A stretch of DNA of 64,000 bases, taken from Leptotrichia sp. HSP-342. GTDB taxonomy: Bacteria > Fusobacteriota > Fusobacteriia > Fusobacteriales > Leptotrichiaceae. The notes under the pieces were generated by a model that was given only the letters and a program-made list of their open reading frames with translations, was not told where the DNA came from and did no database searches. The DNA is taken from the NCBI RefSeq assembly GCF_041199995.1, contig NZ_CP165646.1:992001-1056000 (forward strand), given 5' to 3'. Position numbers and translations under genes: made by a program. Positions 38,427 through 57,982 of this stretch are shown in pieces (position 1 is the first letter of the stretch; each line of letters opens with the position of its first letter).

Positions 38427-38533
38427 ATTTCCTCCTAAGTACAGTTTTATTTATATAACACATAGCAAAACATCTTTAAAATTAATTGTTATATCAATAT
38501 AAGTTTACCTTATTTCTTCTACTTTTTCAATAT

Positions 38534-38563
38534 TTTACAAAATTTTTTTTTAATGATATAATG
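38534..38563 (+). promoter_or_regulatory. Promoter for the tandem paralogue cluster
   Basis: TTTACA (38534-38539), 18 bases including a ten-T run, TATAAT (38558-38563). The block TTTTTCAATATTTTACAAA with its T run is nearly repeated in front of trpS (57884-57923). Confidence 0.55.
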
Positions 38564-38694
38564 AAAATATATTTTTTAAATACAGATATTTATTTTAAAG
38601 AAGCAATAATAAATGAGAAGGAAATAATTATAAATACAAAATTATTTATATAGCTGGTAAAAATAAATTTTTTTGAAAGGAATGATATAATAAA

Positions 38695-48614: not shown

Positions 48615-50495
48615 ATGTATTTTATTGATTTTTTTAAAAAAGTATTTAATTTAAAAAATATTGGGATAATTGTATGGATGGTAATAAACTTATATATAAT
48701 AATTAGTTTTTTTCCAACAACTAAAGGAGTCACAAATGGTTCTGAGGCATTAGTAGCTATAATTCGGGGAGTTATTGTATATGCGATTTCTGTAGCATTG
48801 GCATTATCTCCAATAGGTGAGGCGATTTTTAGGTCAATGAATGGATGTAGAGAAATTGTTGATTCATCCATTCTTAACCGATTGACACCATTATTTAATG
48901 AAATTTATGAAAAAGCTAAGTTAAAAGATCCGAATTTGTCACAGAACATTAAACTGTACATGGTAGACCAGCCCTATCCAAATGCCTTTGCACTTGGAAG
49001 AAATACAGTTTGTGTAACAAACGGACTGCTGCACCTGGATGATGATGAAATAAAAGGTATTTTTGCTCATGAGTTTGCACACCTATCAAATAAAGATACA
49101 GATATTTCGTTGTTTATATATGTAGGAAATTTACTTGCTTCATTAATGTTCCTTATTCTTAGAGTCATACTTTTTATAATAAGTTTTCTTATGATAAGTT
49201 TTTCTGAATCAAACAGCACATATGAAACGTATGATGCTTATGGAAGACGACAAAGAAAAAAAGACGGAGCTTTAAAAGGATTTGCCTTAGCAACAGGTCT
49301 TGATATGATTTATGTGGCGATAATTGGACTATATACAAAATTAGGAATAATTTTAGTAAGTCATTCAAGCAGAAGTCATGAATTTGCAGCAGATAAATTT
49401 GCATATAATTTGGGGTATGGAAGGGAGTTAAGAGACGCTTTGGTAGAATTGCAGGGAGAAACTGAGAAGCCAACAGGCTTTGTAGCAAACCTTATGGCAA
49501 CTCATCCTAAAACAGCATTAAGAATTGAAAAATTAAATATGTATTTATCAGGAAATTTTGACGATGATTTGAATAAATCTATAGATGAAGAGCCACAAAC
49601 ATCAAATGACAAAACTGACACAGCTGACTATAATACAGGTAAAACAGATTATTCGTCAGCTAGTTCAAACGATACGGCTTCCTTTAACAAAGAAGAAACA
49701 AAATATTCAGTTGATTCCAATGATACAATGAGACAGCCAACAATTAACGGTGTAATTTTTATTGATGATGATATAAATTCTGATAAAAACATCAATAATG
49801 TTAAGAATCAGGAAATTATAAACGAAAGAACAACAGCTTCAAATACAGCAACTTTTAATAAAAATGAAGAAAAAATTAGTTCAACTGATGTATCAAAACA
49901 GCATAATGATACAACTTTCAGGGAAGATAATAGCAAAAAGGGTAGTTATGAAAAAATAGAGGATACAAAAGCAAAAACGAAAGTGGAAGTGACTAGCTCA
50001 AGTCAAAAAAATAATGATAGAATATTTTATATAGGATTATTTGCTTCAAGTTTTATTCAAATTATTCCAGCGATTTTTACAAAGACTGCTTTTTTGTTAC
50101 TTAATATTGGAGTTATATTTGGTGATAAATTCCAGCTATATGACTTAGCTATAAGCATTACTTATTTTGCCGATGCACTTGGTGAAGTATTTGATAAGAT
50201 AATATATTTATTTACACGAGAATTATATTTAGCATGTGATATAATTTTAATATTATTATCAATACTAATAATTATAAAATTAAATAAAGAAAACAGGGGA
50301 AATGAATTAAAACGAATAAATTATTTATCAGCAATAGTTGGGAGCTGTATGCGTATTTTTATTCGAATAGCAAGTTATTATTATATAATGGATTTAAAGA
50401 ATTTAGATAATTTGTGTGATGTTATTTTATTAATATCAGCTATCGCAAATGGAATTCTTATCTTCAAAAGAAAAAAGAACAATAAAAAATATTAA
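48615..50495 (+). CDS. M48-family (HtpX-like) membrane metalloprotease with long C-terminal extension
   Basis: A 626-residue membrane protein. Residues 1-320 are an HtpX-like zinc protease: two N-terminal helices (about 15-35 and 45-68), HEFAH at 152-156, two further helices (about 172-195 and 232-252) and the third zinc ligand Glu256 in SRSHEFAADKFAY. HtpX degrades misfolded inner-membrane proteins. Unlike HtpX (about 290 residues), it continues with a polar, repetitive T/S/N/D/K-rich stretch (about 330-465) and then four hydrophobic helices (about 475-620) in a domain I do not recognise. GGAGAG precedes the ATG. The extension may tether it or add a sensor. Confidence 0.87.
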   Translation: MYFIDFFKKVFNLKNIGIIVWMVINLYIIISFFPTTKGVTNGSEALVAIIRGVIVYAISVALALSPIGEAIFRSMNGCREIVDSSILNRLTPLFNEIYEKAKLKDPNLSQNIKLYMVDQPYPNAFALGRNTVCVTNGLLHLDDDEIKGIFAHEFAHLSNKDTDISLFIYVGNLLASLMFLILRVILFIISFLMISFSESNSTYETYDAYGRRQRKKDGALKGFALATGLDMIYVAIIGLYTKLGIILVSHSSRSHEFAADKFAYNLGYGRELRDALVELQGETEKPTGFVANLMATHPKTALRIEKLNMYLSGNFDDDLNKSIDEEPQTSNDKTDTADYNTGKTDYSSASSNDTASFNKEETKYSVDSNDTMRQPTINGVIFIDDDINSDKNINNVKNQEIINERTTASNTATFNKNEEKISSTDVSKQHNDTTFREDNSKKGSYEKIEDTKAKTKVEVTSSSQKNNDRIFYIGLFASSFIQIIPAIFTKTAFLLLNIGVIFGDKFQLYDLAISITYFADALGEVFDKIIYLFTRELYLACDIILILLSILIIIKLNKENRGNELKRINYLSAIVGSCMRIFIRIASYYYIMDLKNLDNLCDVILLISAIANGILIFKRKKNNKKY

Positions 50496-52471: not shown

Positions 52472-52489
52472 ATTGCACAGAAAAAGTTA

Positions 52490-52518
52490 GTGAAATTTAG
52501 TGATAAATATGCTATAAT
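52490..52518 (+). promoter_or_regulatory. Extended -10 promoter for the chaperone locus
   Basis: TGCTATAAT (52510-52518) is an extended -10 element. A weak -35 (GTGAAA, 52490-52495) stands 17 bases upstream of TATAAT. It lies about 90 bases before the GrpE-like gene. Confidence 0.55.
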
Positions 52519-52606
52519 ACAATAAATTGTCTAAATGTATTAAAAACATATTTAATATTAAATATAATTTGGTAAGAAATTAAGGATACATGAAAGGACA
52601 ATGATT

Positions 52607-53200
52607 ATGGAAGCGGAAAAAATTGAGAAAAGGGGCGTATCAAAAATATTTCATCCAGCTTTAAAAAATGAAGCAGTAAAATTGGATGCTGAAGAAAAAA
52701 GTGTATTTGAAGAGATTCAGGAACTTAATGAAAAAATGGATGTTATGAATGATATGGTTTCTCAAAAAATCTTAAATATAGATTTTGAAAAAAATATAGT
52801 CGACAAATTGCACAAGGAACTTCAAGACTATAAAGATGATCTTTATTTTCAGCTTATAAAACCTCTTATAATGGATTTGATAAATATGAGGGAAAGGATG
52901 AGAAGAGCTGTAAAACATTCTTCCAAAGAAACTGATGAAAAAAAAGTTGAAATGCTTGAAAGTTATGTGGAAGAAATTGAAACTATTTTAGAAAATAATA
53001 ATATAGAAATTTACGAAACTAAAAAAGAAAAAGATGATTACAAGGTAAAGAAACAGCGTATAGTAAAACAAATAAAAACATCAGATGAAAAATTACATGG
53101 AAAAATTTGTAATATTTTAACGAATGGATATATTTATACAGAAAAAAATAAAATTATCTTTCCAGAAAAAGTAGAAGTATATGTTTATAAAAACAATTAA
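52607..53200 (+). CDS. GrpE-like nucleotide exchange factor (divergent)
   Basis: A 197-residue protein with the layout of GrpE: a long coiled coil (about 25-75, EEKSVFEEIQELNEKMDVMND), a helical bundle (about 80-135, LIKPLIMDLINMRERMRRAV; KKVEMLESYVEEIETILENN) and a small C-terminal beta domain (about 140-197) ending YIYTEKNKIIFPEKVEVYV, which parallels the GYKLxDRVLRPAxVxV ending of GrpE. The usual PFDPxxHEA loop is absent. GrpE releases ADP from Hsp70; the Hsp70 gene starts 18 bases later. Start ATG 52607 is 8 bases after AAAGGA; the ATG at 52601 is too close. The assignment rests on layout and context. Confidence 0.7.
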   Translation: MEAEKIEKRGVSKIFHPALKNEAVKLDAEEKSVFEEIQELNEKMDVMNDMVSQKILNIDFEKNIVDKLHKELQDYKDDLYFQLIKPLIMDLINMRERMRRAVKHSSKETDEKKVEMLESYVEEIETILENNNIEIYETKKEKDDYKVKKQRIVKQIKTSDEKLHGKICNILTNGYIYTEKNKIIFPEKVEVYVYKNN

Positions 53201-53218
53201 ATGAAAGGAAGAATAAAA

Positions 53219-54865
53219 ATGTCAAAATATGTATTTGGAATTGATTTAGGAACAACATATTCTTGTATAGCTCGTGTAGATGAAACAGGAAGAGCAGAAG
53301 TGATTAAAAACTTAGAAGGCGAAAACATAACACCTTCTGTAGTAGCTTTTGAAGATAATAGTGTAATCGTGGGAAGCGATGCAAAAGAAGAATCAAGCAT
53401 AAAGCCAGAAACAACAGTGTTATTAGTAAAATCTTACATGGGGAAAAAAACTAGCATGCTTGATTATAATGGCGAGCCTAAAATGCCGGAAGAAATTTCA
53501 TCATATATTTTAAAAAAACTTGCAAGAGATGCTTCGGAACGGCTTGGAGTCGAAGTGAGAGATGTTGTGATAACTTGTCCTGCATATTTTGGAACAGCAG
53601 AACGTACAGCTACTAAAAATGCTGGTAAAATTGCTGGATTGAATGTTTTAGAAATTATAAGCGAACCGACAGCTGCAGCAATATATTATGGCTGCACAAG
53701 AAAACATGATGAAAAGACAGTTCTAGTGTATGATCTTGGTGGAGGAACGTTTGATGTTACAGTTATGAGAATAAGTGCTGATAAGATAGAAGTTATATGT
53801 TCTGACGGAGATCATGATTTAGGCGGTAAAAATTGGGATGAAACATTAATGTCTTATTTAATTAATCAGTTTAGTGAAAAAGTTGGATATGAAGTGGAAC
53901 CAGATGAATACTTGGATCAGAGATTAAGGGAACTGGCTGAAAAACTAAAAAAGAGATTAACTTCAAGCACTAAAGCAAGCGGAATACTGGAAGGTGATGG
54001 AAGGCAGGAAAAATTAACAATAACTAGAGAAGAATTTGAAAGAATGACATCGGTATATCTTAGAGAAACAATGAATAAAGTGGACTCTGTACTTGAAATA
54101 GCGCAAAGTAAAGGATATCAAGTTGATGAAGTTCTTTTGGTTGGGGGATCAACAAGAATGCCTCAAATAAAGGAAACGCTGGAGAAAAAATTTGAAAAAG
54201 AAAAAGTTCAGTTTCTTGAACCTGACGAAGCTGTAGCTAAAGGAGCCGCAATTCATGCTGTGAATGTTTATGTAAATAATCAGAAAAATCTTACCGAAAA
54301 AGATTTTGAATCTGATGAAGACGTGCAAGTAAATATTGATGGAGATATAAAAGAGTTAAACGCAAAAGACTATAAGGAAAAATTAAGTTTTTCTCCAGAA
54401 ATAATGAGTCTAGGGGGTAAGGCAAGAGAAGTTGTTATGGCAACAACAAAAAGCTTTGCATTAAACCCTATTGTGAACGGTAAACAAATTGGTTATAACA
54501 TGATTATAAAGAATCAGCCTTTAAATAACGGTTTTTTAGAAGTTTCAAAAGTTTTTGGAACTTATCTTGAAAATCAGGAAAGTGTAAATATAGCAATATA
54601 TGAAAATGACAGTATGGAAGAGTATTTTGAATTGGAGGAAAATTTGAAACTAGGAGATATAAATTTGGAATTGCCTAAAATTCTTCCAAAACAATCTCCA
54701 ATAGAAATAACTTTAAAATTAACTAAAGAGGGAATCCTTGAAGTAAAGGGACTTGACAAAACTAGTAATAAGGAAGTAAAGGTTGAGATGAATACAAAAG
54801 GGATTATGTCGAAAGATGAACTGGAGAAAATAAAACTTAAGGTTCAAGGTATAACATTAATATAA
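53219..54865 (+). CDS. Hsp70 (DnaK)-family chaperone without C-terminal lid
   Basis: A 548-residue Hsp70. The nucleotide-binding domain (about 1-355) is complete: GIDLGTTYSC (phosphate 1), SEPTAAAIYYG (connect 1), YDLGGGTFDVTV (phosphate 2), VLLVGGSTRMPQ (adenosine). The linker differs from the DnaK VLLLDV motif. A beta substrate domain follows (about 385-525; MSLGGKAREVVMATTKSFAL). The protein ends at GIMSKDELEKIKLKVQGITLI, where DnaK would begin its helical lid of about 100 residues, so the lid is absent. DnaK proper is not in this window; this looks like a specialised paralogue. Start ATG 53219 follows AAAGGAAG. Partners: the GrpE-like gene before and the J-like gene after. Confidence 0.9.
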   Translation: MSKYVFGIDLGTTYSCIARVDETGRAEVIKNLEGENITPSVVAFEDNSVIVGSDAKEESSIKPETTVLLVKSYMGKKTSMLDYNGEPKMPEEISSYILKKLARDASERLGVEVRDVVITCPAYFGTAERTATKNAGKIAGLNVLEIISEPTAAAIYYGCTRKHDEKTVLVYDLGGGTFDVTVMRISADKIEVICSDGDHDLGGKNWDETLMSYLINQFSEKVGYEVEPDEYLDQRLRELAEKLKKRLTSSTKASGILEGDGRQEKLTITREEFERMTSVYLRETMNKVDSVLEIAQSKGYQVDEVLLVGGSTRMPQIKETLEKKFEKEKVQFLEPDEAVAKGAAIHAVNVYVNNQKNLTEKDFESDEDVQVNIDGDIKELNAKDYKEKLSFSPEIMSLGGKAREVVMATTKSFALNPIVNGKQIGYNMIIKNQPLNNGFLEVSKVFGTYLENQESVNIAIYENDSMEEYFELEENLKLGDINLELPKILPKQSPIEITLKLTKEGILEVKGLDKTSNKEVKVEMNTKGIMSKDELEKIKLKVQGITLI

Positions 54866-54883
54866 AAATTATTTTTATAAAAT

Positions 54884-54936
54884 GCTCAAGTTTTTTAATA
54901 TCTAAATTGATATTATGGAATTTGAGTAAATTTTTA
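54884..54936 (+). terminator. Possible attenuator or terminator after the Hsp70 gene
   Basis: An imperfect hairpin: CTCAA (54884-54888) pairs with TTGAG (54921-54925), and AATATC (54898-54903) with GATATT (54909-54914); a T-rich tail follows. The 200-base gap to the J-like gene also has a TATAAT at 54955 without a good -35 box. Confidence 0.4.
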
Positions 54937-55065
54937 TTTGTTAATCATAGATTGTATAATAATTGCGAGAAATTTAAAATTACTATTTGAATTGTAATAT
55001 GGCAGTTTAATTTTAATGTAGTTTTGCTGAATTTGAATAAATAAGAATGCAAAGGAGAATATACA

Positions 55066-56070
55066 GTGTCAAAAGAAATAAAAGATAATTGGTATGTAGT
55101 ATTGGGATTGGATTTTTATCCTATTGCTGAGGAAAATGAAGAAATTATAAAGAATAGGATAGAAGAAAAGAAATCTGAGTGGGAAAGAAGGAAAGTTCGT
55201 GCTTATAATAAAGAAAATTTTATAAGATACATTAATTCATACGACACTATAAAAGAGGAAATGTTGGGGAGTAATAATATAAGAAAAGAATTAATAGAAG
55301 ATGCCATCGCTCCTGTAGACAATGCTTTAAAAATGGGAGAAGGAAGCATTAAAGTCTTTACAGATGATATTATAAAAAAAATTTCAAGGGAAACAAAGAG
55401 AAGTGAGAAAGTCGTAAGACAAAGAATTATGGAAAATCCTAATTTTGAATTGTATGATGAAACAATTTACAATGATTATCTTAACATTATTAAAAATAAG
55501 ACTGATTTTGAAATAATAGAAAAATCATTAAAAATATTGAATAGCAAAGATATTTATAGCTTTTTGAGTTCTCAAAATTTAAAATTTGAAACTTTAGATA
55601 ACAGTATTATAAATAAAGAAAGGAAAAAACTGACAAATCTTCATAATAATATTTCTTCTGCTAAAAACAAATTATATAGTCAAATTGAAAATATGGTTAA
55701 CAATAATGAAGAAAAACAAAAATATGATAAATATTTAAAGTATAGTAAAGTAATAAAAGAGCTAAATTATGTAAAAATATACAAAAACGGAACTGTAGGA
55801 ATTAAACCTGTTCAAAACATCAAAAAAATATTAGGCAATGAAAAAGAAGCAACTAATATTTTTATAGGCTTTTGTGAAGAAAATAATATTGCATACAATC
55901 TTTCGGATAACTCGGATACAGTAATTTCAGATACTTTAAATGATGAAAATGAAAATTTTAAAATTACATCTGATAATAAACAGACTAACCATATGATCAG
56001 ATATGTTGTGGCTTTAGCAGTATTCGCTTTAGGAGTTTTTGTAATAAATACATATTTTATAGGAATATAA
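55066..56070 (+). CDS. J-like protein without HPD motif, C-terminal membrane anchor
   Basis: A 334-residue protein. Residues 5-75 recall a J-domain: DNWYVVLGLDFYP at the start (as in YYEVLGL), then helices IKNRIEEKKSEWERRKV and NKENFIRYINSYDTIKEEML. The HPD tripeptide needed to stimulate Hsp70 is missing. The middle (about 85-270) is helical with a coiled coil (EKSLKILNSKDIYSF; NNISSAKNKLYSQIENMVNN). A single hydrophobic helix near the end (about 311-331, MIRYVVALAVFALGVFVINTYF) suggests a tail anchor with the body in the cytoplasm. Start is GTG 55066 after AAAGGAG. It probably brings the Hsp70 to the membrane; this is inference from domain and context. Confidence 0.65.
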   Translation: MSKEIKDNWYVVLGLDFYPIAEENEEIIKNRIEEKKSEWERRKVRAYNKENFIRYINSYDTIKEEMLGSNNIRKELIEDAIAPVDNALKMGEGSIKVFTDDIIKKISRETKRSEKVVRQRIMENPNFELYDETIYNDYLNIIKNKTDFEIIEKSLKILNSKDIYSFLSSQNLKFETLDNSIINKERKKLTNLHNNISSAKNKLYSQIENMVNNNEEKQKYDKYLKYSKVIKELNYVKIYKNGTVGIKPVQNIKKILGNEKEATNIFIGFCEENNIAYNLSDNSDTVISDTLNDENENFKITSDNKQTNHMIRYVVALAVFALGVFVINTYFIGI

Positions 56071-56080
56071 AAGAATAATT

Positions 56081-56112
56081 ACATAGTATTCTGTGTTTTT
56101 TTGTGTTATAAT
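56081..56112 (+). promoter_or_regulatory. Weak terminator overlapping a new -10 box
   Basis: ACATAG-TATT-CTGTGT (56081-56096, one G-U pair) with a run of T, directly followed by TATAAT (56107-56112), 35 bases before the HsdS-like gene. It suggests that the last two genes of the locus can be transcribed separately from the chaperone genes. Confidence 0.5.
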
Positions 56113-56146
56113 AAATATGGAAAAAATAAAATAAGAAGAGGTAGAA

Positions 56147-56734
56147 ATGAAATTAGGAGATAATGTAGATATAATAGCGCCATTAAACGTAAAAACGGCT
56201 GATTCTGAAACAGGATATTTTTTACTAAATCCAACAATGATAAGCAACGGAAAAATAGAAACTTTTGACTATGCAGAAGTTCCAGACAGATATAAAAATG
56301 GAAAAAATAAAATAGCCGATAAGTATTTTATAAAAAAGGATGATGTGCTATTTCAAGCTAAAGGAAGTAAAATAGATGTAGTGTATGTAGATAAGGATTA
56401 TGAAAAAGTTCTTCCATCAACACTTTATTTTATTTTAAGACCAAATGAAAAAATAAATCCCAAATATCTTCAATGGCTTTTAAAAACAGAACTGGTATTA
56501 TTGTATTTTGAAAAGAAATATAAAACAATGGGGACTGTTAGGGCTGTGAACAAGGGAGACATAGTGGACCTGAATGTGAAGATACCCGAAAGAAAAATTC
56601 AGGACGAAATGGCTAAAATAATAACAAGTTTTGAAGAGGAAGAATACAGTACAATGAAATATTTAAACATAAAAAGAAAGTACATTGAAGAAAGAGTTAT
56701 TGAAAACAATCAGGTGATAATAGATGAAGAATAA
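56147..56734 (+). CDS. HsdS-like single target-recognition domain protein
   Basis: A 195-residue protein resembling half of a type I restriction specificity subunit: a beta-rich recognition-like part (about 1-115; KLGDNVDIIAPLNVKTADSETG, YFIKKDDVLFQAKGSK, YFILRPNEKINPKYLQWLL) ending with GTVRAVNKGDIVDLNVKIPE, then RKIQDEMAKIITSFEEEEY and a helix (about 140-195) like the conserved spacer helix of HsdS. HsdS proteins have two such domains; this has one. No HsdR and no intact HsdM are in the window. AGAGGTAG precedes the ATG. Its end overlaps the next gene by 11 bases. A DNA-binding adaptor is the simplest guess. Confidence 0.72.
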   Translation: MKLGDNVDIIAPLNVKTADSETGYFLLNPTMISNGKIETFDYAEVPDRYKNGKNKIADKYFIKKDDVLFQAKGSKIDVVYVDKDYEKVLPSTLYFILRPNEKINPKYLQWLLKTELVLLYFEKKYKTMGTVRAVNKGDIVDLNVKIPERKIQDEMAKIITSFEEEEYSTMKYLNIKRKYIEERVIENNQVIIDEE

Positions 56735-57857
56735 ATTTTTTAAAGTTATGAGCGAAGAACTTGAAAATGAAAAAAAATCAAAAAAAATAGATATACTTAA
56801 AACATCATTATTTTTATATATGACTGTAATAAGTAAAGTTCTTTATGAAGAACTGGAAGTTTTGAAAAATAGTAATTATTTATTTTTAGAATATTTAAAT
56901 AATATAGGTTTTACGTACAATTTAAAAGAAAATTATTTGAAAAATATGAAGAATCTATCAAGTAAAATAAAGATATTTGAAGATACCTATAAAGCTATAG
57001 AAAGTCGTTTGAACAGGGAAGAGCTGATTGAAGATGCAGGAGCTATGGAAATAGATCTTAAACTAGATATTTTCAGAGGACAATGTGTAAAAATAGTTAA
57101 GAATTATATTGATAAAATAATAAACAGCGCAGTAATACCTAATGACAACACAGTTCAGCTGTTATCAGAAATTCTTGGAATAAAAAATAACGAAATTTTA
57201 TATGCTATAAATTTTTTTGAAGAAAACATATTTTATGATTACGAAATACCAAAAAATGAAATAGATACTATTACTGATATTTTATTTTCCATAGCTAATT
57301 TAGAAAAGAAAGAAAAAATATCAATAATTTTAACAAAAGAAATAACATCAAAAGAATTAATATATGAATCAATAAAAAATAATAAAAAAGGCATAGTGGA
57401 GAAAAGCGTTATTGATTCGTTAACTTTAGAAGAAAAAGAGGAATTAGTAAAGTCAGATAAAATTCAATGCGTAATATCTGTACCGTTTAATAATGTATTA
57501 AAGAATCAAGTAATAATATTTAACGAAGAAAAAGAAGAAAAAGAACATATATTATTTGTTCAAACACAAGATTTTTTTGAAAAAGGGAATGAAAAAATTA
57601 AAGTTGAGAACTTTAAGGAATTGTTAAAAATTCTTGATGAAAAAGAGGAAGTTAATGGAGTCTTAAAATCAGTTTCCAATGATGCAGTATTAGAGAAAGA
57701 ATGTAATTTTGATATTTTAAATTATGTCTTTAAAATAAAGGAAAAAATTAATTTGGAAGAATTAATGGCAGAAAAGGATGAAAGTTATAAAATAATGACA
57801 GAAAAAAGAGAAAAATGTGATAAGTTATTAAGAGAATCTTTAGAGGTAAAAAAATAG
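56724..57857 (+). CDS. HsdM-like protein lacking methyltransferase motifs
   Basis: A 377-residue soluble protein. The N-terminal half (1-190) is helical and unrecognised. The C-terminal half resembles the end of type I/N6 DNA methyltransferases: KGIVEKSVIDSL, then ELVKSDKIQCVISVPFNN and VIIFNEEKE, HILFVQTQDFFEKGNEK and CNFDILNYVF, parallel to HsdM segments xAVIxLP, ILVLNK, VLFIDAS and NxxRYV. The SAM-binding FxGxG and catalytic NPPF motifs are absent, so it cannot methylate. It overlaps the HsdS-like gene by 11 bases (ATG at 56724, stop at 56734), which implies coupled translation and probably a complex. The similarity is read by eye and is the least certain of the locus. Confidence 0.55.
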   Translation: MKNKFFKVMSEELENEKKSKKIDILKTSLFLYMTVISKVLYEELEVLKNSNYLFLEYLNNIGFTYNLKENYLKNMKNLSSKIKIFEDTYKAIESRLNREELIEDAGAMEIDLKLDIFRGQCVKIVKNYIDKIINSAVIPNDNTVQLLSEILGIKNNEILYAINFFEENIFYDYEIPKNEIDTITDILFSIANLEKKEKISIILTKEITSKELIYESIKNNKKGIVEKSVIDSLTLEEKEELVKSDKIQCVISVPFNNVLKNQVIIFNEEKEEKEHILFVQTQDFFEKGNEKIKVENFKELLKILDEKEEVNGVLKSVSNDAVLEKECNFDILNYVFKIKEKINLEELMAEKDESYKIMTEKREKCDKLLRESLEVKK

Positions 57858-57894
57858 ACATTATTTTATTCCGCTTTTTAGGCTTTTTCAATAT

Positions 57895-57923
57895 TTTACA
57901 AATCTTTTTTTTAGTGATATAAT
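57895..57923 (+). promoter_or_regulatory. Promoter for trpS
   Basis: TTTACA (57895-57900), 17 bases with an eight-T run, TATAAT (57918-57923). Nearly the same block stands at 38524-38563. Confidence 0.6.
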
Positions 57924-57982
57924 ACAGGTATGTTTTTAAAAATATAAGTATCTGTTTAATAATATAAATTATGGAGGTTTTT

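Follow-up and report, generated by a model that had tools for sequence, protein, structure and literature searches.

This paper describes a conserved accessory gene block of Leptotrichia, bacteria of the mouth, in which genes for a specialised Hsp70 chaperone machine are followed by genes for a type I restriction-modification-like protein pair, S (HsdS-like) and M (HsdM-like), of which M has lost the segments required for methylation. Both the cassette and the loss of catalysis are well supported by the comparison of sequences, and we infer that S and M still bind DNA and are coupled to the chaperones. The copy that served as reference lies in a stretch of 64,000 nucleotides from Leptotrichia sp. 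HSP-342, hereafter the window. No description of this composition was found in the titles and abstract openings listed by searches of an open-access library, preprints excluded.

The chaperone genes and the putative membrane-bound co-chaperone

Five consecutive open reading frames are present on the plus strand at 52601-57857 (Table 1), in agreement with the original prediction, and the 11-base overlap of the S and M genes that it had noted is found, by coordinates, in the window as well as in 12 fetched loci.

Table 1. Genes and regulatory elements of the cassette in the window.
Feature	Position	Strand	Remarks
GrpE-like nucleotide exchange factor	52601..53200	+	199 aa; possible start 52607; PF01025
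Lidless Hsp70	53219..54865	+	548 aa from ATG 53219; ORF open from 53201 = 554 aa
J-like (unproven) putative co-chaperone with C-terminal membrane helix	55066..56070	+	334 aa
S, single-TRD HsdS-like protein	56147..56734	+	195 aa; Methylase_S E 3.1e-9
M, HsdM-like protein without methyltransferase motifs	56724..57857	+	377 aa
Chaperone promoter block	52487..52518	+	pattern TTARTGAAATTT-N14-TATAAT; conserved
Weak terminator-like hairpin AGAATA/TATTCT + T run	56072..56102	+	overlaps S promoter; sequence + upstream-region alignment
S promoter block	56085..56112	+	GTATTCYRYR-T7-RTGKTATAAT; conserved

The first two genes encode what had been predicted, a GrpE-like protein (Pfam PF01025, E 1.7e-9, 38 bits against a cut-off of 25.8) and a lidless Hsp70 of 548 residues (Pfam HSP70, E 1.4e-112). 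Alignment with DnaK and HscC places the end of the window Hsp70 approximately 15 residues past its beta-sandwich domain, reveals an insert of about 50 amino acids between its two domains, and shows that the GrpE-signature loop and the segment corresponding to DnaK 77-101 are missing. The GrpE-like gene adjoins an Hsp70 gene although the encoded Hsp70 is devoid of the GrpE-signature loop.

In its shortness and the two missing segments the protein resembles HscC, the best-studied short specialised Hsp70, of 550-580 aa without the GrpE-signature loop and with DnaK 76-101 deleted, for which passages of PMC8215388 suggest chaperoning of cadmium-related membrane proteins and leave a wider role open. 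The window Hsp70 is just below that length range and differs from HscC, which keeps its lid sequence and has no long inter-domain insert that could be seen; moreover, it is accompanied by a GrpE-like gene, as in seven of the 10 linked cassettes, whereas HscC is thought in the same passages to act without GrpE (PMC8215388). The djlB-djlC-hscC cluster of E. coli encodes a Sel1-repeat protein, and Sel1 repeats were matched in 5 of 20 relatives of the window's third protein; a title cited by PMC8215388 describes DjlC as tail-anchored. DjlB and DjlC, however, have recognisable J domains with an HPE motif, which the window partner lacks, and that E. coli stretch contains no S-M genes. Another related arrangement is a GrpE-Hsp70-TPR-DnaJ operon (L078) in another fusobacterial genome, perhaps of the Fusobacteriaceae, where a dedicated GrpE (6.2e-12), a 542-aa Hsp70 and a J protein are encoded in a single run, but there Pfam recognises a real J domain (1.3e-15) and S-M is missing from the fetched stretch.

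The third protein had been predicted to be J-like, without an HPD motif and with a C-terminal membrane helix. The absence of HPD and the helix were borne out, the latter near residues 311-332 (hydropathy peak 2.39 over residues 314-332) and within a helix at 289-333 in the predicted structure, which agrees with membrane tethering, but no test backed a J domain. The protein matched no Pfam family above cut-off and not DnaJ (PF00226) at E values up to 10, and DnaJ was not among the best 25 of 89 families for 20 of its relatives. Comparison of its family profile with six E. coli J domains (hhalign) yielded a score of 9.1, which was equalled or exceeded by 46 of 60 column shuffles (median 10.7, maximum 16.8). 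Residues 1-68 were modelled with pLDDT under 50, and no J domain appeared among the structure matches listed. A candidate J domain with HNN in place of HPD at residues 163-226 (approximately) was likewise unsupported by the profile comparison and the shuffle control.

Relatives of this protein at the other linked loci measure 574-652 aa and extend past the membrane helix, whereas an exported domain is missing from the window copy. In L036 the extension carries a YARHG domain and the same cluster contains an Amidase_3 gene, while an LprI gene is present in the cluster of L075, which has no S-M; only these two clusters suggest a role at the cell envelope. The exported parts encoded at L029 and L034 matched no Pfam family above cut-off.

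S and M: lost chemistry and a conserved recognition domain

As predicted, the fourth and fifth proteins resemble a single-domain HsdS and an HsdM without FxGxG and NPPF motifs. S consists of one Methylase_S domain (PF01420) that scores above cut-off. M alone matched no Pfam family, apart from a chance match that stayed under the cut-off. A profile built from 10 of its relatives, however, matched HsdM of EcoR124II (9.3e-12, residues 238-371), and its predicted structure, a weak model with a mean pLDDT of 64.8, matched HsdM structures; S and M are therefore not unrelated to HsdS and HsdM. N6_Mtase was matched by 11 of the 12 cassette M genes, in the C-terminal part only, the broken G072 copy being unlisted. 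The SAM-binding motif I and the NPPF/DPPY block are missing from all four cassette M rows that were aligned with compact HsdM proteins, and the span from the first chaperone gene through M contains no HsdR gene in any of the ten linked cassettes. Of the predicted DNA-binding but non-methylating module, the loss of methylation motifs is thus confirmed, and DNA binding is a plausible property.

Type I systems usually have the gene order hsdM-hsdS and an HsdS with two TRDs; the C-terminus of HsdM binds S, and half-S subunits may dimerise. The cassette shares with these systems the Methylase_S domain and the C-terminal part of HsdM, but S precedes M and evolves more slowly, and the catalytic motifs and HsdR are absent. 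Closer relatives are compact S-first HsdSM units (L037, L039, L040) of another fusobacterial family, which we take to be the Fusobacteriaceae, as for all of L037-L042. In these, a single-TRD S of 189-190 aa, 42-43% identical to the cassette S (about E 2e-40 or better), is followed by a short M, with the same 11-base overlap in L037. Their M, however, is 425-434 aa long and matches N6_Mtase over most of the profile, with FGKGS and NPPF in L039, and the ORFs of the stretches fetched include no Hsp70 of the cassette clade. Identity of S to the HsdS proteins of Leptotrichia itself is 23-29%, with E values of 1e-5 or weaker against four of them. S-M probably derives from an S-first HsdSM methyltransferase of the compact kind, with methylation since lost.

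Over six pairs, dN/dS was 0.015-0.053 for S and 0.060-0.132 for M, which demonstrates very strong purifying selection on S; Hsp70 was slightly below S in two of these pairs. By identity, S is the protein most conserved between cassette groups (74-79% between the window and the other linked groups, versus 65-68% for Hsp70 and 50-52% for M). In genuine type I loci of Leptotrichia the trend is opposite, since HsdS outpaces HsdM in divergence: in a control of five HsdM and four HsdS proteins, HsdM was 91-99% identical (10 pairs) and HsdS 45-71% (6 pairs). This control left out a 206-aa HsdS-like piece (L149), L152_1868, L153_3100 and the L154 ORFs, one of which, L154_2766, is an HsdS that had been grouped by length under HsdM. 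These rates and identities, unlike those of the type I loci of the genus, point to a fixed specificity of S. Because the marking chemistry is lost while the part for DNA recognition is strongly conserved, the S-M pair probably binds DNA for a purpose other than restriction. Decay of a type I locus was rejected on dN/dS values of both S and M far below 1, yet two of the 12 S-M loci are broken, L033 in M and L032 in S.

Occurrence of the block and its two promoters

Twelve S-M loci were found in 9 of 13 Leptotrichia genomes. Ten of them lie in one run with the Hsp70 and J-like genes, at three sites, with S directly after the J-like gene in nine and after the J-like gene plus an amidase gene in one, so that the two blocks co-occur beyond the window as predicted. 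The other two loci are away from Hsp70, one intact (L031) and one whose S is split by a transposase gene (L032); conversely, four Hsp70-J clusters without S-M occur in three genomes, and G081 carries S-M far from its Hsp70 cluster. The Hsp70 clade concerned (identity at least 59%) is present in all nine genomes with S-M versus one of the four without. Location 2 is empty of the whole block in seven of the 13 genomes, and in G080 and G081 the chaperone promoter is kept there as a scar directly before the next gene. Four other Leptotrichia genomes lack the 19.4-kb segment to which the window cassette belongs. The same cassette groups emerge from the trees of Hsp70, J and M, and most of them from that of S, and pairwise identities over nine cassettes correlate between the proteins (Pearson 0.85-0.97), all within a single genus whose related genomes are not independent. 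Linkage at three sites, broadly agreeing trees and absence as a block answer against a chance neighbourhood of the two parts.

Two conserved promoter blocks precede the chaperone genes and S, respectively. In five diverged cassettes (the window, L028, L030, L034 and L036), the chaperone block has a mean identity of 88%, compared to 30-49% in flanking 30-bp windows, and the S block 87%, compared to 25-39% in most flanking windows and 65% just upstream. Both blocks are found in all 10 linked cassettes, where exact matches arise by construction as the search patterns were built from them, and the chaperone block in none of the four Hsp70 clusters without S-M; it is also present in G080, without S-M. 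Outside cassettes fell 5 of the 15 matches of the chaperone pattern, two being the scars in G080 and G081, and 2 of the 12 matches of the S pattern, while a reversed control pattern had none. One exact match (G070:591036) precedes an unrelated acyltransferase-like gene.

The caveat that a weak terminator and a new -10 at 56081-56112 might split the genes into two transcripts proved right, in that S has a conserved promoter of its own; both elements are real and conserved according to the sequence and the upstream alignment. A consensus scanner lists neither of them, the hairpin failing its G-C minimum, and in the L028 and L033 types the hairpin pairs less strongly.

Possible function and alternative explanations

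The role of the S-M complex is probably regulatory. Our preferred reading, which falls somewhat short of even probability, is that an envelope-tethered specialised Hsp70 machine is genetically coupled to a non-methylating S-M pair of fixed specificity, forming an envelope-to-DNA device for regulation or tethering rather than a restriction-modification system. Half-S subunits would pair and be held by M, so as to bind a single fixed sequence of DNA and leave it unmodified; the putative co-chaperone would keep Hsp70 at the inner membrane, with its longer homologues sensing the envelope; and remodelling or titration of S-M by Hsp70 could shift DNA occupancy, for example at the promoters of the cassette itself. 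The device may then work like a chaperone-controlled repressor, by analogy with HrcA and sigma-32. The most specific form, in which the membrane-tethered lidless Hsp70 reads the envelope and loads, unloads or titrates S-M as an envelope-to-nucleoid regulator or tether, is possible, if doubtful. Against the preferred reading, Hsp70 is devoid of the GrpE-signature loop beside a GrpE-like gene, the J identity failed in every test, the window copy is without the exported domain, the M model is weak, and the promoter blocks could serve an unrelated regulator. Its own promoter moreover means that S-M may be a separate unit, and loci of either part without the other exist. The two latter points, together with the accessory 19.4-kb location of the window copy, agree with the alternative of uncoupled neighbours, in which S-M, a domesticated remnant of HsdSM, binds DNA and regulates itself on its own and travels with the envelope chaperone genes through a shared island or insertion site. 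This is rather unlikely in view of the same gene order at three sites, the block-wise absence, the broadly concordant trees, the chaperone promoter block that marks linked but not unlinked clusters, and the Hsp70 clade retained in every genome with S-M.

Defence, one of the functions originally suggested, would have S-M recognise unmodified or invading DNA, with the membrane-bound Hsp70 machine as sensor or effector. The patchy distribution across species on an accessory segment, the descent of parts from restriction-modification and a weak match (4e-6, 25.9 bits versus a cut-off of 400) between S and MAD5 of the MADS defence system fit such a role, but it is disfavoured and unlikely: PADLOC returned for S only generic Specificity_I models (best 25 of 60), none for J and M, and weak matches for GrpE (0.0084) and Hsp70 (0.00039), neither a nuclease nor a helicase nor an HsdR is encoded in the cassette, S evolves under extreme purifying rather than diversifying selection, and no relative of M or J was confirmed in the viral contigs or plasmids searched. 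Loss of DNA binding, in which case M-S would serve the chaperone as a structural adaptor or deliver clients to it, would accord with an M that lost its enzyme core while both proteins stayed under purifying selection; the retained single-TRD Methylase_S domain and the higher identity of S than of Hsp70 between cassette groups make it quite unlikely. Finally, a dead M and a half-S might act as dominant-negative or anti-restriction subunits on a resident type I system, as could be indicated by their kinship with HsdM and HsdS, the C-terminal part of HsdM that M retains, the true HsdM genes in some cassette genomes and the resemblance of S to the HsdS of the genus. This is very improbable, since S is nearer to the compact S-first units and since genome G070 carries two cassettes, whose S genes are its only two Methylase_S matches, and no canonical type I HsdM, which argues for independence from restriction-modification and against an HsdMS helper of a resident system.

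If the preferred reading is true, restriction-modification would have supplied DNA-recognition parts to a domesticated device that modifies nothing and is controlled by chaperones. This would provide a function for one branch of the short specialised Hsp70s and show how a defence enzyme can turn into a regulator, a path open to direct testing in an oral anaerobe that is in culture. Even if the two parts are not coupled, a half-HsdS whose evolution is slower than that of its HsdM is an unusual example of a recognition domain that has become frozen.

Composition and linkage of the cassette

The identities proposed for the first, second and fourth proteins of the cassette were confirmed by matches to the GrpE, HSP70 and Methylase_S families above the cut-offs, and no Pfam family reached its cut-off for proteins three and five. 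Alignment with DnaK and HscC showed that the cassette Hsp70 is lid-less, as had been claimed, since it stops directly after the beta-sandwich domain; moreover, neither the GrpE-signature loop nor the DnaK 77-101 segment is present, and its two domains are separated by an insert of about 50 residues. The third protein, predicted to be J-like with a C-terminal membrane helix, does end in such a helix but failed the J-domain tests. Its homologues in linked cassettes (the HsdS-like/HsdM-like pair, S-M, in one run with an Hsp70 and a J-like gene) beyond the window and its relatives L026 and L027 measure 574-652 aa and extend past the helix, where one of them (L036) carries a YARHG domain.

Coordinates of the cassette and its surroundings in the window
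Feature	Position	Strand	Remark
19.4-kb segment	38581-57941		between ROK-kinase-like gene and trpS; includes the cassette
59-bp imperfect direct repeats	38522-38580 and 57883-57941		flank the segment; 50/59 identical
M48-family metallopeptidase	48615-50495		upstream of cassette
DKNYY-family repeat protein, 653 aa	50510-52471		immediately upstream of cassette; kept in L025-L027
Chaperone promoter block, 32 bp	52487-52518		upstream of first chaperone gene
Five-gene cassette	52601-57857	+	ORFs
S promoter block	56085-56112		weak terminator and extended -10
trpS	57971		directly 3' of cassette

Among 98 genomes of the phylum, matches spanning most of M were restricted to Leptotrichia (12 loci, spread over nine of its 13 genomes), and the cassette evidence covers this one genus. 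Of these genomes G001 is the closest to the window, whose named protein hits come from L. hofstadii and L. buccalis. The anticipated co-occurrence of chaperone genes and S-M was found in other genomes, with 10 of the 12 S-M loci being linked cassettes; S lies directly 3' of the J-like gene in nine of these ten, an Amidase_3 gene intervenes in L036, and seven include a GrpE gene. The unlinked loci are L031, which is intact, and L032 (G081), in which an IS605-type transposase gene splits S; both genomes retain Hsp70-J clusters at other places. The frame of M is lost in L033 (G072), and these broken copies imply that the S-M module is dispensable in some species. Hsp70-J clusters without S-M (L073-L076) occur in three genomes. 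Two of them, L073 and L074 in G078, include three and four paralogues of the J-like gene, a number of whose products terminate in Sel1/TPR-like repeats, and a lone intact S-M pair lies approximately 20-35 kb away. This Hsp70 clade is present in one (G075) of the four Leptotrichia genomes without S-M, and another, G074, has only a distant Hsp70 (39%). In L077 of G074, a distant relative of the chaperone set, recombinase-like genes accompany a GrpE-like protein, a pair of Hsp70-like proteins and a protein of 1049 aa whose sequence begins NYFEILGL.

Control regions and genomic sites

The chaperone promoter block displays 88% identity among five diverged cassettes, compared to 30-49% in neighbouring 30-bp windows, and is present in 10/10 linked cassettes versus 0/4 unlinked Hsp70 clusters; just five further matches with at most two mismatches were detected in the 13 genomes, two of which are scars in G080 and G081. 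The block upstream of S shows 87% identity among the same five cassettes, against mostly 25-39% around it and 65% just upstream. Its terminator and extended -10 imply that S-M can be transcribed separately, which bears out the caveat of two transcripts. Of the 12 matches to this block in the genomes, ten fall at linked cassettes, and the lone S-M locus L031 kept just the 3' half of the block.

The cassette occupies three sites: before trpS (3/13 genomes), before an exo/endonuclease-phosphatase gene (location 2; 6/13), and a third in G070. The far border of location 2 is one same gene in G001, G071 and G072, and falls outside the fetched stretch in G073, G077 and G079; the border genes adjoin each other, without a cassette, in 7/13 genomes. 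Between these border genes, G080 and G081 retain a copy of the chaperone promoter, and their similarity to L034 picks up again immediately after the M stop codon. These scars are most simply read as the loss of Hsp70-J-S-M by a single deletion; an insertion of the cassette at a promoter that was already there is less likely, since cassettes at the other sites start with this promoter too. The Hsp70, J and M trees recover the same groups (window, L026, L027; L028-L030; L033-L035; L036), and in the S tree L028-L030 and L033-L035 again form groups, although the window group is not resolved. The S-M-less L075 and L076 fall inside the linked cassettes in the Hsp70 tree (93/90), which implies either a loss of S-M in these two or two separate gains of it.

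Besides the cassette and its two upstream neighbours, the segment before trpS encodes an autotransporter, a subtilase and three proteins of about 200 aa that belong to no Pfam family; in G072, G073, G077 and G079 the ROK-kinase-like gene adjoins trpS. The flanking repeats (score 73, maximum 43 in 293 random windows) contain a promoter-like stretch before trpS. A relative of the M48 protease (44%) lies between the Hsp70 and J-like genes of L073.

Relation of S-M to restriction-modification

On the basis of G070 gene content, PADLOC and S similarity, S-M is INDEPENDENCE from restriction. The single 2,465,610-base contig of G070 carries two cassettes and only two Methylase_S matches, both being S; its six N6_Mtase matches, two of which are M, include no canonical HsdM, the best non-M match (2.9e-10) being on a 691-aa frame. 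PADLOC gave no system-specific defence component for the cassette among the matches listed. S shares 42-43% identity with compact S-first units (about E 2e-40 or better), compared to 23-29% with four HsdS of its own genus (E 1e-5 or weaker), and S-M is, judging by sequence, descended from compact S-first HsdSM units. As originally observed, M has lost the methylation motifs, and S-M stands outside restriction-modification by catalysis, by the lack of HsdR within the ten linked cassettes and by mode of evolution.

Across six pairs, dN/dS amounted to 0.015-0.053 for S, 0.060-0.132 for M, 0.010-0.100 for Hsp70 and 0.129-0.237 for J, and identity between the window and other linked cassette groups was 74-79% for S and 50-52% for M. 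True type I loci of the genus display the opposite pattern (five HsdM, 91-99%, 10 pairs; four HsdS, 45-71%, 6 pairs). Neither restriction-modification nor phase-variable methylation would call for a recognition subunit that changes less than its partner, as S does; the pattern fits a fixed target.

Proposed working and place among Hsp70 systems

At the sequence level, composition, linkage, methylation-motif loss, constraint and promoter blocks are established. S subunits may pair into a two-TRD unit held by the retained C-terminal part of M, and this complex would bind one conserved sequence without modifying it, the two promoter blocks being candidate operators. The membrane-helix partner would recruit Hsp70 to the membrane, where Hsp70 and GrpE could change S-M occupancy. 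Two clusters have features related to the envelope (L036 with YARHG and Amidase_3, and L075, which lacks S-M, with LprI), and an M48 protease gene lies close to the window cassette and to L073; together these hint that envelope state may be the input.

By analogy, the Hsp70 might work like HscC, but it is not of the HscC type with respect to lid, GrpE and linker; the third protein resembles DjlB/DjlC in position and topology, differing in its failure of the J-domain tests. No description of the five-gene composition appeared among the listed results of open-access literature searches. Judged by composition, the new element, of putative function, is the addition of S-M to an Hsp70 operon. Finally, to judge from a related GrpE-Hsp70-TPR-DnaJ operon in another fusobacterial genome (L078), dedicated Hsp70 operons may recur more widely in the phylum.
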